Shown piece by piece: positions 12,772 to 26,415 of a DNA stretch of 64,000 bases. This stretch comes from Oscillatoriales cyanobacterium SM2_2_1. GTDB lineage: Bacteria > Cyanobacteriota > Cyanobacteriia > Pseudanabaenales > Pseudanabaenaceae. Location of the stretch: positions 1 through 64,000 of the forward strand of contig JAAUUH010000003.1 in the NCBI GenBank assembly GCA_012031145.1, given 5' to 3'. Positions within the stretch are counted from its first letter, which is position 1, and each line of letters starts with the position of its first letter. The position numbers and the translations under genes are program-made. The notes below the pieces were generated by a model, which saw only the letters and a list, made by a program, of their open reading frames with translations, did not search any database and was not told where the DNA came from.

Positions 12772-12828
12772 TCGGGAATCAATTCCTACCCTTTTTCTGT
12801 CCTTCAAAAGCATGTTATATTACGACTA

Positions 12829-12920
12829 GCTCGGATCTATGCGATCGCAACGCCCGAACCGTGTCAGGGCTGGAAGGCAGCAGCACTAAGGGATGCTTGA
12901 GATAGGCGTAGCCTCCGGGC
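12829..12920 (+). ncRNA. ffs: Signal recognition particle RNA (small bacterial type)
   Basis: Contains the universal SRP helix 8 region: CCGTGTCAGGGCTGGAAGGC followed by AGCAGCACTAAGGG. Flanking arms pair with each other (GCTCGGA at 12829 with TCCGGGC ending 12920). A TATATT box about 10 bp upstream (near 12816) is a plausible -10 element. The RNA binds Ffh and targets nascent membrane proteins. Confidence 0.93.
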
Positions 12921-13115
12921 TTTAATTTTCACGATTTCAAATTGTCCGGTCAATTAATTTGCATTAAATCTCACTTTTTTATCTGAGATGCAAAGCAAGA
13001 AGCAAAATTTTACACAGTTTCATGGTTCATTCCCTCCTCAATGAGACGTTAAATTCTCTGCAGTGATTTGCAGACGTAACCAAACACTCGTCTTTTCACT
13101 AAAGCTAAATGAATC

Positions 13116-13887: not shown

Positions 13888-15230
13888 CTAGGATAGGCAG
13901 GCGAAAAGGCGGGGTAAAAATTTCTGGATCGTGGCTGGGGCATCGCCCCGGAAAATATGGGGATAGTGCCCCTTGGGAACTTTTCGAGCAGGGGGGGGTA
14001 CCTGCTGCCACTCTAGGGCATTGTAAAAACCGAGAAATTGGGGAACAGATTTAGGGGCTAGGTTTCGATAGATTTGCTGTTGTGCAGACCAGCCATATTG
14101 CTGACCACTAGCATCCTGCCACAGGGTATCGAGTGTCCGAACCGTGGCGCAGATTTGGGGATTCCATTGATCGAGGTAGAACATGCGATCTTGGGTGGTG
14201 GGCTGACCCATCCTTTGGAAGAGAATGGCTTGGGTTTCGGCTTCGGCTTTGTCCCATTCTTTTCTATCTAGCAGATGTCGCAGATGGCTTAGGCGATTGG
14301 ATGGTTCCATACCCAAAAGCTGTCGTCCGAACTGATAGGCTGGGTCAATGGCCAGGGCGATACAGGTGAGTAGTCCCAATCCGCCTAGGATGACTGTGGG
14401 GAGTGATCGCCACGTCACTCGCTGACGCAGAGCTTGCTGCACTTGGAGGACATTGGCATAGCGATGGTTTAGGTCGAGGGAGACCATGCGATCTAGAATC
14501 TTTTCCAGATGCGATCGCGTTTTTTGAGATAGTGCTTCCATTGCAGGTGTCCGGCGGAAGTGCGGGTCAGTTGATTGGGGGGCATCCCGGTGAGGGCCTG
14601 AACGATGACCATGCCGAGGGCATAGAGGTCACTGCTGTAGGTGGCGCGACCGACTTCCTGTTCTTTAGCCATATAGCCAACGGTGCCGATCGCCATGGGC
14701 AGTTCCCGAGAGCTGGGGTAGTGCTGCACGGTGCCGAAGTCAATCAACATCACCGCGCCATCGCGATGGCGGCGCATGAGGTTAGCTGGTTTGATATCGC
14801 GGTGGATTAACTGGGCGTTGTGAACGACTTCAAGGGCAATCAGCACATCTTCAAGGAGGGCGATCGCCTTTACATGGGGCATTGGCCGACCGATGGGCAG
14901 TTCCATGAGCAAAGAGTGGCCATCAATCCACTCTTGAACGAGGAATAGCTCCTGATGTTCTTGGAAGTACGCCAAAAGCTGGGGGATACGGTCGTGGGTT
15001 CCCAACTCTTGGAGCGCCTCCGCTTCGGACTGAAACATCTCTTGGGCCGTCAAAGCCGCCCGTTCACTATCCTGAATGGGACAGAGGTGCTTTACCACGC
15101 AGGTGGGCGTGCCAGGGAGGCGAGTGTCGATCGCGAGATAGGTCTGGGAAAAGCCGCCCGCCGCTAATTTGTCCAGAATGAAGTAGCGGCCATCCAGGGT
15201 AGTTCCGATCAGGCTATTCGCGGTTAACAT
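13888..15230 (-). CDS. Serine/threonine protein kinase with C-terminal GUN4-like domain (frameshifted)
   Basis: The upstream frame (15230-14493) is a Hanks-type kinase: DGRYFILDKLAAGGFSQTYL (P-loop), CVVKHL (Lys), HRDIKPANLM (catalytic loop), LIDFGTVQHY (DFG) and GTVGYMAKEQEVGRATYSSD. The downstream frame (14541-13888) continues the kinase C-lobe, a membrane segment (TVILGGLGLLTCIALAI) and a GUN4-like region (HLRHLLDRKEWDKAEAETQ, LDTLWQDASGQQYGWSAQQQ). One extra T in the T6 run at 14520-14525 joins them. GUN4 domains bind porphyrins, and the kinase would sense or signal tetrapyrrole or redox state, which is inference. It is last in the ftrC operon, and its start overlaps the LapA-like stop. 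The GUN4 match is weaker than in the second copy at 25.1 kb. Confidence 0.8.
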
Positions 15231-15540
15231 ACCTCAGCTCAATAATGTCATCTTCATCCTCCTCGCCCTCATCATAGTCCTCATCGTCAGACTCTGGATC
15301 ATCCTCCAGCTCATCATCAAAAGCCCCGGCGAGAGACGTCAGACGGTTCACGACCCCCAGTACCAACGCGCTTACGGCCCATGCCGCCGCACCGCCACTG
15401 ACCGTGGCAGCAATGCAGGCAGCCCCAAGGGGTAATGGCACACTAATCACCCCCAAAAACCTGATCTGCACCACCGGATCGCTGTTCTGCACTATCAGTA
15501 GGGTTCCGAAGGCCAGTAGCGTCGCCCAATAGATGCGCAC
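15214..15540 (-). CDS. Small membrane protein, LapA/DUF1049-like, acidic tail
   Basis: About 109 residues from a GTG at 15540, chosen because translation from there begins directly with VRIYWATLLAFGTLLIVQNS, a LapA-type first membrane helix with the QNS motif. Upstream residues in the frame overlap the NTF2-like gene. A second hydrophobic segment (PLGAACIAATVSGGAAAW) follows. The C-terminus is extremely acidic (DDELEDDPESDDEDYDEGEE), an unusual cytosolic tail. The gene lies between the NTF2-like gene and the kinase, with short or overlapping junctions, so the three are likely one transcript. The function is unknown. Confidence 0.65.
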   Translation of the reverse strand: MRIYWATLLAFGTLLIVQNSDPVVQIRFLGVISVPLPLGAACIAATVSGGAAAWAVSALVLGVVNRLTSLAGAFDDELEDDPESDDEDYDEGEEDEDDIIELRYVNRE

Positions 15541-15547
15541 GTCTGCC

Positions 15548-15982
15548 CTAGGACTTAATCTGGGCAAGCATGGTTTGGGGCTCCCAGTAGGCGCGAATCT
15601 CCTGAATTTTTGGCGTGGCATCGATGACAAATAAATCGATGCCTTCAAACTTCGTGGTTTTCCCCCCATGGGTGTGACCGGTGGCCGACCACTTCACGGC
15701 CACTTCCCCATTGGGGGCGATCGCTACAAAGGTTTCATAGATTTCGAGCTGGGCAAATAATCCTTTCATCGCCGTAAAGGATTCGGCCATGGCGGATTTA
15801 CCCTGGGTGGTTTTTACACCAACGGGGTCATGGTTTACCACATCCTCGGTGAGGGCATTGAGATATTCAGAGTCATCAAGGGCGCGGATGGCAGCAAAAT
15901 AGTTGGCAATCAATTGGGCGATCGCATCAGTTGATGGAGCAATAGATTGCGCATTAGTTAAATCGGTGGATTTAGCTGTCAT
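15548..15982 (-). CDS. NTF2/SnoaL-like fold protein
   Basis: About 144 residues from the ATG at 15982; a TTG six bases upstream is also possible. The ATG lies inside the end of ftrC. The pattern ANYFAAIRALDDSEYLNALT, HDPVGVKTTQGKSAMAES and GHTHGGKTTKFEGIDLF is that of SnoaL-like/NTF2-like proteins, which form a cone-shaped ligand pocket used by isomerases, hydrolases and carriers. Its substrate is unknown. The 11-bp overlap with ftrC suggests translational coupling with thioredoxin-reductase supply. Confidence 0.75.
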   Translation of the reverse strand: MTAKSTDLTNAQSIAPSTDAIAQLIANYFAAIRALDDSEYLNALTEDVVNHDPVGVKTTQGKSAMAESFTAMKGLFAQLEIYETFVAIAPNGEVAVKWSATGHTHGGKTTKFEGIDLFVIDATPKIQEIRAYWEPQTMLAQIKS

Positions 15983-16331
15983 AGTCAACGGCTACCTCTG
16001 CTAGTTCTTGGGCTGTGCCGACAAAGGGATTGTCCGAGGTCAAAAATAATAAACAGTGGCATTCCTTCCGCTCACGCATCGGCACACAGGGACAGTTCCA
16101 ATAAGTGTTTTTAACTTCTGCCTCCTTGTCCTCGTAGAAGCGGCAGGGACACAGGGGCGCACCTAACTCTTCTTTATGTTTAGCCAGCCCTTCAATCACA
16201 GCCGTGGTAATGCTGGGGTCGCTGCAAAAAAAAGTGTCGGTTCGCTTAGCGTAGGTTTCGGCAAATTTACGCATAGCTTCAAAATTCTTTACAGAGGCCT
16301 TATTTTTTCCGCGATTATCGTCTTGATTCAT
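15972..16331 (-). CDS. ftrC: Ferredoxin-thioredoxin reductase, catalytic chain
   Basis: 119 residues, the usual size. The Fe-S/disulfide cysteines are all present: FFCSDPS, LCPCRFYEDKEAEVKN, WNCPCVPMRERKECHCLLFL. The enzyme passes electrons from photosystem-I-reduced ferredoxin to thioredoxin through a 4Fe-4S cluster and an adjacent disulfide. The variable-chain gene (ftrV) is not in the window. It is the first gene of a minus-strand set with an NTF2-like protein, a LapA-like protein and a kinase. Confidence 0.95.
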   Translation of the reverse strand: MNQDDNRGKNKASVKNFEAMRKFAETYAKRTDTFFCSDPSITTAVIEGLAKHKEELGAPLCPCRFYEDKEAEVKNTYWNCPCVPMRERKECHCLLFLTSDNPFVGTAQELAEVAVDYDS

Positions 16332-16445
16332 TGCATTTTGACGTTTTTCCTAATAATGTACACCACTTTAATCGGCATTTTAGGGAACTCTATGGGCCAC
16401 AGTGATTCGGAGAATTTGCTAGGGTGTAAGCAAAACATCAAAAAA

Positions 16446-17124
16446 ATGAATTTGACAAAAATAACGTTATGGACAGGCGTTTTGGGTGTGGTGCTGCTTT
16501 GGACAGGGGACCTCACTGCCCAGGAGGCACCCAAGGTGGGAACGCCCCGATCGCTCCCTTTGCTCCAGACCCGGGCCCGTCCACCGCTGGCTAGTGAAAA
16601 TCTCTACATGGGCATGACCGAGACCGATTTTTTTGCCTATGCTCGCGAGCACAACTGGGCAGCGGTCACCTCGAAATTTGTGTCCACCCATGGATTGCAC
16701 CGATTGCAGCCGGGGGGGGGAGGGGTTGTACACCCTTAACGCAGAGTTGGTCTATGCCAAAGGGTTTGTGGCGGATGTGTATTTTAGTGACCGTCGGTTG
16801 GTGGGACTGCGGTTGGTGGCTGATTCACGCGATCGCCCCCTCAGCCTTCCCAATCTGTTTCGCCTGGCCCAAGCATGGTTTCCCGATCAGATGCTCAGTG
16901 TGATCTATCAAGTTTTGCCCGATGACCCCCAAAGAATTGTGGTGGATTCCCTCATTGGCACCATTCCCGATGTCTTCCGACGGGAATTGGGGCGCGCCGC
17001 TTTACCTTTTTGTCGGGCAGTGGTGTTTTCCCGGGCGATCGCCTCTACACCCCTAACAACCTGCCCCCAGCATCGCTTATCGTCGGTATTTTTCGATAAC
17101 CTAGGTCTTAATAAAAGTTCCTAA
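16446..17124 (+). CDS. Exported protein of unknown function (frameshifted)
   Basis: Starts at the ATG at 16446 with a signal peptide ([20 protein letters not shown], cut near LTAQ-EA). The first frame runs to [20 protein letters not shown] and [11 protein letters not shown], then hits a G9 run at 16712-16720 and terminates at 16739. Removing one G lets it continue as [20 protein letters not shown] and [15 protein letters not shown] second probable indel is a missing G in the G4 run at 16989-16992. The corrected frame would read [20 protein letters not shown] and end at 17099, which reads more naturally than the uncorrected tail to 17124. I do not recognise the family. Confidence 0.6.
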
Positions 17125-17147: not shown

Positions 17148-18159
17148 ATGACCCAAAAGCGTGTTCTCTCTGGGGTGCAGCCCACTGGTAATCTGCACAT
17201 CGGCAATTATTTTGGCTCCATCCGCAACTGGGTCGAACTGCAGAGCACCTATGAGAACTTTTTTTTGTGTGGTGGATCTCCATGCGATCACTATTCCCCA
17301 CGACCCGGCCAACTTGGCCTACCATACCCGCAACACTGCAGCGCTCTATTTGGCCTGTGGCATCGACCCGCAGCGCTCGACGGTCTTTGTCCAATCCCAT
17401 GTATCGGCCCATAGCGAACTGGCGTGGCTCCTTAACTGCATCACCCCCCTCAATTGGCTGGAACGCATGATCCAATTTAAGGAAAAGGCGATCAAGCAAG
17501 GGGAGCAGGTCAGTGCTGGGTTGCTAGACTATCCCGTGTTGATGGCAGCGGATATTTTGCTGTATCAAGCGGATTTGGTTCCCGTGGGCGAAGACCAGAA
17601 GCAGCACCTGGAGCTAACCCGCGACATTGCCATTCGGGTTAATGACCAGTTTGGTTCCCCAGAGCAGCCGGTCTTTCGGATGCCAGAACCATTGATCCGT
17701 ACCCAGGGAGCCCGGGTCATGAGCCTGGCCGATGGGAGTAAGAAAATGTCCAAGTCCGATCCTTCGGAATTGAGCCGGATTGAACTGTTGGATAGCCCGG
17801 AGGAAATTCAGAAAAAAATTAAGCGCTGCAAGACCGATGCCGGGCGTGAACTGGTGTTTGATGATCCCGATCGCCCCGAATGCCACAATTTGATGACCCT
17901 ATACCAATTGTTTAGCGGTCAATCCAAGGAAGCAGTCCAGAAGGAGTGCGCTAACCTGCGGGGCTGGGGCGACTTTAAGAACCTCTTGACCGAAGCTGCG
18001 ATCGCCCATTTGGCCCCCATTCAAGCCAGATATCGGGAAGTCACCGCCGAACCTCGCTATCTGGAGGAACAGTTGCACTCAGGACGGGAGCGAGCCACGG
18101 TGATCGCCGAGAACACCCTCAAACACTGTCAACATGCCCTCGGCTTCCTAGGGCGATAG
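17148..18159 (+). CDS. trpS: Tryptophanyl-tRNA synthetase (frameshifted)
   Basis: The first frame begins [20 protein letters not shown], with the HIGN signature of class I synthetases, and breaks at a T8 run (17259-17266). The second frame continues [16 protein letters not shown], then [34 protein letters not shown] and [16 protein letters not shown] (KMSKS loop) to 18159. With one T removed the protein is complete at about 336 residues, the normal TrpRS length. The enzyme charges tRNA-Trp and is normally essential, which argues that the indel is a sequencing error. It is convergent with nrtD. Confidence 0.93.
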
Positions 18160-23636: not shown

Positions 23637-23740
23637 CTCGTTCACTACTCTGACTGTCATGACTTTGGCTGTGTCATCCGCGCTGCTGATGAAGCCAGCA
23701 AAAAGCAGATGTTTATGCTAATGTAAATATCGCTTCGATG

Positions 23741-23811
23741 CGGGTGTAGTTTAGTGGTAAAACCACAGTCTTCCAAACTGTCGTTGCGGGTTCGATTCCC
23801 GCCACCCGCTT
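23741..23811 (+). tRNA. tRNA-Gly (anticodon UCC)
   Basis: 71 nt with a full cloverleaf. The acceptor is GCGGGTG paired with CACCCGC, the D-arm region is TAGTTTAGTGGTAAAACCA, the anticodon loop is CTTCCAA (TCC), and the T-arm is GCGGGTTCGATTCCCGC. The CCA end is not encoded. Confidence 0.96.
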
Positions 23812-25114: not shown

Positions 25115-26415
25115 ATGAGCTACTGCCTGAATCCATCCTGTCCTCAACCAAAGAATGAAGACGGAATGCGGTTTTGTTGCTCGTGCGGTTCGCCTTTGGA
25201 ATTGCATGGACTCTATCGGGCGATCGCCCCCATGGGACAGGGTGGAATGGGGCGAACCTTCCGTGCTCTGCAGTTAGATACTCAGACGCCCTGTGCCATC
25301 AAACAGTTCTATCCTCGAAGCCAAGATCCACGGTTCTATGAAAAGGCTTTGTCTCTGTTTCAACGAGAGGCTTTTCAGCTCAGAGAGCTGGGAGCCCATC
25401 CCCAAATTCCAAAATTCTTGGACTTTTTTTCTGAGTCTAATTATTGGTATTTGGTGCAGGAATTTATCAACGGTGCTGATCTTGAAGTTTTACTGCACAG
25501 TGGGGGGCCTTTTTCGGAATTCCAAATTCGGGAACTGTTGCAGCAAATGCTGCCAGTGCTGTCCTTTTTGGAACAGCACCAAGTGATCCATCGGGATATT
25601 AAGCCAGCTAATATTCTTCTCACTGGTGATGGACGCTATGTTTTGGTCGACTTTGGAGCGTCGAAAACCCATAATTCCCAGCTAACGGGTACCCTGATTG
25701 GCACGGCGGAATACGCAGCACCAGAACAAACCCAGGGGCGAGCTACCTATGCTAGCGATATTTACAGTCTTGGGGTAACCTGCATCCACCTACTGACAAA
25801 GCAATCGCCATTTGATCTATATGATGACTACCGGCAGGAATGGTGTTGGCTAGAGTCCTTACCCCAACCCATTTCCCCACACCTGCAAATGGTGCTGTCC
25901 CGGCGATCGCCCAATCTCCGGCGCATCGTTACACCGACGGTATGACTATGCTGGCCGATCTCACCACTTCAGGAGCCAGTGTGGCGCAGGTGTGCCACCT
26001 CCTGCAAAACCAGCAGTGGCAGTCTGCGGACCAAGTGACCACCGAGCTCCTCAGCGGCGATGTTAGCCAGATCGCCTGCGATCGCCTCTGCGGACTGGAT
26101 CGGGCATGGCGTGAGGCCAGCCAAGAGCGCTTCGGATTCTCAGTCCAGAGAGACATCTGGCTCAACCTTGGCGGGCAGCTTGCCTACGCTCCCAATCGGC
26201 AGTGGGAATTTGCCGCCACCTATCTCAAATTTAGCCGCCGAGTTGGTTGGCTTCGCCAGAACTGGTGGCGTACCAAGTGGCTCCTGCCGACGCAACTTAC
26301 CTTTTCTCTTCAGGCACCCCTCGGACATTTGCCCACGTTCTGCTACCAAAGGGGCGTTGACAGTGCCGATGCCTTCTTCTGGCGGCTTACTATCTGCGGG
26401 GCAATGCCGCCCTAG
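25115..26415 (+). CDS. Zinc-ribbon serine/threonine kinase fused to GUN4 domain (frameshifted)
   Basis: Begins with a four-Cys zinc ribbon (CLNPSCPQ and FCCSCGSPL), then a Hanks kinase: PMGQGGMGRTFRALQ (P-loop), CAIKQFYP (Lys), VIHRDIKPANILL, VLVDFGASK and GTAEYAAPEQTQGRATYASD. The kinase frame ends at 25945, while the continuing C-lobe (AIAQSPAHRYTDGMTMLADL) and the GUN4 domain are in the next frame. The GUN4 blocks are HLLQNQQWQSADQVTTEL, LDRAWREASQERFGFSVQRD and LQAPLGHLPTFCY. One extra G near 25902 (plus strand) gives LSRAIAQSPAHRY in one frame. GUN4 binds porphyrin and stimulates Mg-chelatase; fused to a kinase it would act as a tetrapyrrole-linked sensor, which is inference. The stop overlaps convergent cphA by 4 bp. 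Confidence 0.85.

Follow-up and report, generated by a model that had tools for sequence, protein, structure and literature searches.

Four genes on the minus strand of Oscillatoriales cyanobacterium SM2_2_1 are likely to form a real, compact and genus-specific cluster that is probably expressed as one unit. We also consider it likely, as part of the same reading, that the last of them encodes a membrane-anchored kinase with an outward-facing GUN4-like domain and that the frame break found in this gene is an error. The genes lie in a 64,000-nucleotide stretch of contig JAAUUH010000003.1, referred to here as the window, and run from 16331 to 13888 in the order ftrC, NTF2/SnoaL-like gene, LapA-like gene and kinase-GUN4 gene. 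The junctions were read directly and consist of an 11 bp overlap between the ftrC stop and the NTF2 ATG, a 7 bp gap between the NTF2 stop and the LapA GTG, and a 17 bp overlap between the LapA stop and the kinase ATG. The single strand and the spacing given in the first-pass annotation are thereby confirmed.

The product of ftrC (15972..16331, minus strand; 119 aa) is the catalytic chain of ferredoxin:thioredoxin reductase (FTR), a redox enzyme driven by light, and the genome holds a single ftrC match. The protein matched PF02943 (FeThRed_B; 2e-39, 134 bits), and a script found the pattern CPC-x16-CPC-x8-CHC, whose spacing we take to be the signature of the FTR catalytic chain. The NTF2/SnoaL-like gene (15548..15982, minus strand) starts with ATG and matched SnoaL_2 at 3.6e-10, its score of 40.8 bits lying above the cut-off of 27. 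The third gene (15214..15540, minus strand, GTG start) is listed, as it was previously, as encoding a small LapA-like membrane protein with an acidic tail. The label "LapA-like" is nevertheless weak, since the LapA_dom match (0.008) scored 16.5 bits against a PF06305 cut-off of 28 bits, which a score of 19.2 bits likewise did not reach. The fourth gene had been described as a kinase-GUN4 gene; both domains are present, but they are split here over two frames. The first half (14493..15230, minus strand) matched Pkinase (5.6e-31, 108 bits) and carries VVKH, HRDIKPAN and DFG, which correspond to the catalytic Lys, the HRDxKPxN and the DFG of Hanks-type Ser/Thr kinases. The second half (13888..14541, minus strand, -1 frame) comprises the end of the kinase domain, a hydrophobic segment and the GUN4-like domain, which matched the GUN4 profile at 1.4e-14 with 54.8 bits against a curated cut-off of 29.2. 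Elsewhere in the window, Rfam identified a small SRP RNA (12828-12924, plus strand) and a tRNA (23740-23810, plus strand).

The cluster was compared with that of UBA999, the sole genome of the same genus that was included. All four genes, their order, overlaps and frames recur there. The NTF2-like protein is 76% identical to its UBA999 counterpart over 134 aligned codons (dN 0.18), and identities are 58% for the LapA-like protein, 83% for the kinase half and 54% for the GUN4 half after the shift. The dN/dS ratios, calculated by the Nei-Gojobori method with Jukes-Cantor correction, were ~0.01 for ftrC, 0.14 for NTF2, 0.16 for LapA, 0.08 for the kinase part and 0.28 for the portion behind the break; these are rough values, as dS (~1.3 to 1.9) is near saturation. 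On these estimates, purifying selection acts on every gene of the cluster. Since the arrangement recurs although silent sites are heavily diverged, the shared order, overlaps and frames point to more than chance. The retention of a four-gene stretch by itself proves little, because the two genomes have gene blocks of some 2 to 9 kb in common in any case: a 20-kb stretch splits into about five blocks, one of which is the ftrC cluster, and the flanks of this block differ in arrangement from one species to the other.

The kinase frame closes at a stop at 14493-14495, and GUN4 is encoded in the -1 frame (ORF 14541-13888), so that the two frames overlap at 14493..14541. In UBA999, the kinase-GUN4 gene is whole, a single frame of 449 codons whose kinase reads on without a stop at the break position. 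Past the break, comparison with UBA999 gave a dN of 0.36 and a dS of 1.29, in-frame stops are absent as they are in the kinase part, and alignment gaps span whole codons, suggesting that the GUN4 half was translated until very recently. Three more genes of the window are each split over two frames here and whole in UBA999. These are trpS (17148-18159, plus strand), which has no second match in the genome; its neighbour NlpX (16176-17124, plus strand), a label coined here for a gene that is divergent to ftrC and has no Pfam match; and a second kinase-GUN4 gene (25115-26415, plus strand) with a cysteine-rich start and HRDIKPAN, which is a single 438-codon frame in UBA999. The source assembly of 3.1 Mb consists of 185 contigs and is 90% complete. 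As the halves before and behind the break both show codon-level constraint and three other genes are split as well, the simplest and most likely explanation is an error in the sequence or its assembly. A real break, whether it marks a recent pseudogene, a pair of separate proteins or programmed frameshifting, is unlikely. It is present in the assembled sequence, and the second kinase-GUN4 gene is likewise split near its kinase/GUN4 junction; against this, both genes are single frames in the sister genome, the unrelated trpS and NlpX are also split, and selection persists past the break. Old pseudogene decay was rejected on the dN and dS values behind the break, and programmed frameshifting or slippage at an A-run was rejected because the difference aligns after the A-run and unrelated genes are split too. 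Four split genes in one window call for caution, as such most likely assembly errors may mimic biology.

With the break read as an error, the last gene would encode a membrane-anchored Hanks-type Ser/Thr kinase with a cytosolic kinase domain, one transmembrane helix, and a GUN4-like domain directed toward the periplasm or thylakoid lumen. A hydrophobic, nearly uncharged segment of 19 residues separates kinase and GUN4 in 11/11 members of the family. Its mean hydropathy is 1.84-2.48 in these members (KD 2.23 in the window protein), a measure that is unspecific when taken alone, as a value of 2.15 was obtained for a stretch inside the kinase of another protein. Summed over the 11 members, K+R number 33 among the 15 residues flanking the segment toward the kinase and 13 among those toward GUN4; the corresponding D+E sums are 22 and 14. 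Hydropathy together with this modest charge bias suggests that the likelier topology has the kinase inside and the GUN4-like domain outside (periplasm or lumen). The latter domain is GUN4 by profile, by sequence matches to solved GUN4 chains (4ykb, 4.5e-6; 7e2r, 0.014) and, weakly, by fold. The structure model of the GUN4 half was poor (mean pLDDT 53), too weak for judging a pocket or the distance between cysteines, and its two best PDB matches were GUN4 (E 0.045 and 0.10). Receptor-type bacterial Ser/Thr kinases of the PknB/PASTA type are built from a kinase, a TM segment and an outer domain. By analogy, we infer that kinase-GUN4 may act as a receptor kinase.

The synteny check that the first-pass annotation had called for was run on ftrC neighbourhoods in other cyanobacteria. 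ftrC was matched in 37 of 39 genomes (own included), and 35 of the 36 loci outside SM2_2_1 and UBA999 were compared, the G020 locus being left out and some stretches stopping at contig ends. Queries with NTF2, LapA and GUN4 gave 0 matches in those 35 loci, and kinase-like matches were found in four (28-41% identity). Among 80 named ftrC loci (L093-L172), NTF2, LapA and GUN4 occurred together at one, which is UBA999; kinase matches were present at six, namely UBA999 and five others with 30-40% identity. On these counts, the idea that the four-gene order is widely conserved was rejected, and within the loci compared the cluster is restricted to the genus. Separation of the genes in most relatives, which the first-pass annotation had named as one half of a refutation, is what the loci outside the genus show. 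A search with the NTF2-like protein gave matches in 31 of 291 genomes of the class (own and sister included; loci of ~1.5 kb each side). As ftrC was present only in the own and the sister locus of the 30 returned, the NTF2-like gene was also rejected as a regular ftrC partner. At 46 of the 80 named loci, the same-strand gene downstream of ftrC falls in one homology cluster (DUF309 in the one member scanned); this gene has about 130 codons and often a 4 bp overlap. At 11 loci the next gene is convergent and belongs to another homology cluster. The table of downstream genes behind these counts is approximate, as the simple gene caller chose a longer antisense frame over the NTF2 gene in UBA999. 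Matches to both TrpS and NlpX occur close to ftrC at 13/80 loci, UBA999 among them.

The kinase-GUN4 protein is an old family protein that is tied to ftrC only in this genus, since the best kinase and best GUN4-half matches co-locate in UBA999 and in 14 family genomes (G004, G005, G008, G011, G014-G023). In a FastTree phylogeny of 103 GUN4 domains, the 11 sampled members of this family are adjacent in tip order. In 18 of the 22 loci inspected, the gene immediately after ubiX is LapA-like. The LapA-like gene is found directly 5' of kinase-GUN4 in G008 and G020, with ubiX ahead of it, and in SM2_2_1 and UBA999, where the locus has no ubiX, the latter lying on another contig. LapA and kinase-GUN4 are apart in 12 other genomes that have both. 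The LapA and kinase pair may be older, with ftrC-NTF2 as a newer neighbour, and the cluster would have been assembled when the NTF2-like gene and the older pair came to lie behind ftrC, a housekeeping gene. The ubiX-LapA order holds in most of the Pseudanabaenaceae loci examined (L203, L206-L221, L020), and several of these carry a Ser/Thr kinase gene divergent to ubiX, with a DUF4189 C-terminus in the one scanned.

The proposal that the four genes share one probable transcript gains indirect support from the overlapping genes, the same order in one sister genome and the lack of intergenic space. Co-transcription is plausible on this layout and would start at a promoter immediately ahead of ftrC, where a block conserved with UBA999 in the alignment (16332..16380, minus strand) is the candidate promoter or leader. 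A sigma-70 consensus scan found no site in this block, and in a consensus promoter and terminator scan of the cluster, sites were no commoner than in shuffles. Alternatively, the adjacency may be a neutral accident of rearrangement, with a transcript perhaps in common and a function not; we give this almost an even chance. It fits with the rearranged flanks, with the swapped upstream partners of LapA and with the different gene that follows ftrC in other cyanobacteria, whereas overlaps kept despite near-saturated silent sites speak against it. The cluster is ordinary in its parts and matters little beyond its genus.

The first-pass annotation had gone further and suggested that the cluster could connect FTR/thioredoxin redox state to tetrapyrrole-type signalling and pigment control through kinase-GUN4. 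Such a link would accord with the adjacency and overlap with ftrC, with the GUN4-like domain itself, and with a passage in PMC7159879 that proposes enzyme-fused GUN4 domains as tetrapyrrole sensors. According to passages of PMC10156173, the motif LxNxLR marks bilin-binding GUN4, paralogs are without the Asn, and substitution of this Asn abolished bilin but not porphyrin binding. LxNxLR is absent from the GUN4-like domain of the window, where GHYP is followed by HIFRGD (HVFRGD in UBA999), and no Asn was found even when a two-residue gap was allowed. The best GUN4 match of the genome, on contig C149, has the motif (LTNQLR). Given this difference, bilin sensing by the window domain is unlikely. 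The existence of this separate motif-bearing GUN4, the predicted membrane segment that precedes the GUN4-like domain, and the genus-only linkage to ftrC all count against the pigment-control model as well, which we regard as very improbable. Further GUN4 domains of the genome (C68, C124, C6) include one with a kinase-like domain in which HRH replaces HRD, another with a complete kinase domain, and a third that is split over two frames.

A pair of cysteines was found in non-canonical GUN4 domains. The set comprised 103 domains with a GHxP-type anchor from the collected loci (L001-L336), anchorless or identical-sequence profile matches having been dropped. LxNxLR, with conservative changes allowed, is present in 25 and absent in 78, one of which (L275, LSDQKR) resembles an altered canonical GUN4. 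At two alignment columns, Cys is frequent in the 78 and missing from the 25 canonical domains. The first column precedes the DxLW helix and the second is at the domain's C-terminal end, where the canonical set has no residues and the absence of Cys may reflect only a shorter tail. Both cysteines are present in 55 of the 78 domains, the first only in 3, the second only in 4, and neither in 16 (Fisher 2e-10, ignoring relatedness). Parsimony on a weak tree of 133 columns gave 14 changes for the first, 12 for the second and 18 jointly, about 8 of them coinciding; with labels shuffled, joint changes averaged 22.2 and never fell below 18, which indicates only modest clustering of the labels on the tree. 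Both cysteines occur in the window protein, within QICATV and RLFACLS. The natural guess is that they may form a disulfide or thiol pair, and in the membrane-type kinase-GUN4 the pair could be merely structural, beyond the reach of thioredoxin. The GUN4 passages of PMC3778395 contain nothing on such a pair. GUN4-like domains on cyanobacterial kinases, and on at least one caspase-type protein, might be thiol-switch sensors in which the bilin motif has been lost and a covarying pair of cysteines acquired, the disulfide state of the pair setting enzyme activity; the membrane-bound version of the UBA999 genus would then be made with ftrC so that FTR/thioredoxin, directly or via a trans-membrane thiol relay, sets this state. 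We rate this idea as a long shot. Kinase-linked GUN4 is usually read as a tetrapyrrole sensor by analogy with chlorophyll-making GUN4, and the covarying pair offers a concrete, cheaply testable alternative in a disulfide or thiol switch. It matters more than the ftrC cluster and is the part worth a bench test.

Compared with canonical GUN4, the Mg-chelatase regulator, the window domain is alike in its PF05419 match and in the weak-model fold match to 7e2r, and it differs in having no LxNxLR, in being fused to a kinase and in carrying two cysteines missing from the 25 canonical domains. GUN4 is also joined to caspases and TIR, as passages of PMC7159879 and PMC2853523 describe. The Pseudanabaenaceae kinase-DUF4189 gene beside ubiX-LapA (L207) likewise places a Ser/Thr kinase of the same group near a LapA-like gene, but has DUF4189 in place of GUN4 and a divergent orientation. 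With PknB/PASTA-type kinases, the window protein shares the predicted succession of kinase, TM and outer domain, the outer domain being GUN4-like rather than PASTA. Kinase and GUN4 fusions of cyanobacteria have been in print since 2005, in passages of PMC1262709 (2005) and PMC2176072 (2007). The cbSTKII-GUN4 proteins described there (alr4949, Tery_1722, CYB_0637) combine, like the window gene, a Ser/Thr kinase with a C-terminal GUN4. The one open frame that defines cbSTKII-GUN4 is found in UBA999 and is interrupted in the window. The family of the window protein has a predicted membrane segment between the two domains, which may set it apart from the named cbSTKII-GUN4 proteins, and a further difference is that in this genus kinase-GUN4 sits behind ftrC-NTF2.
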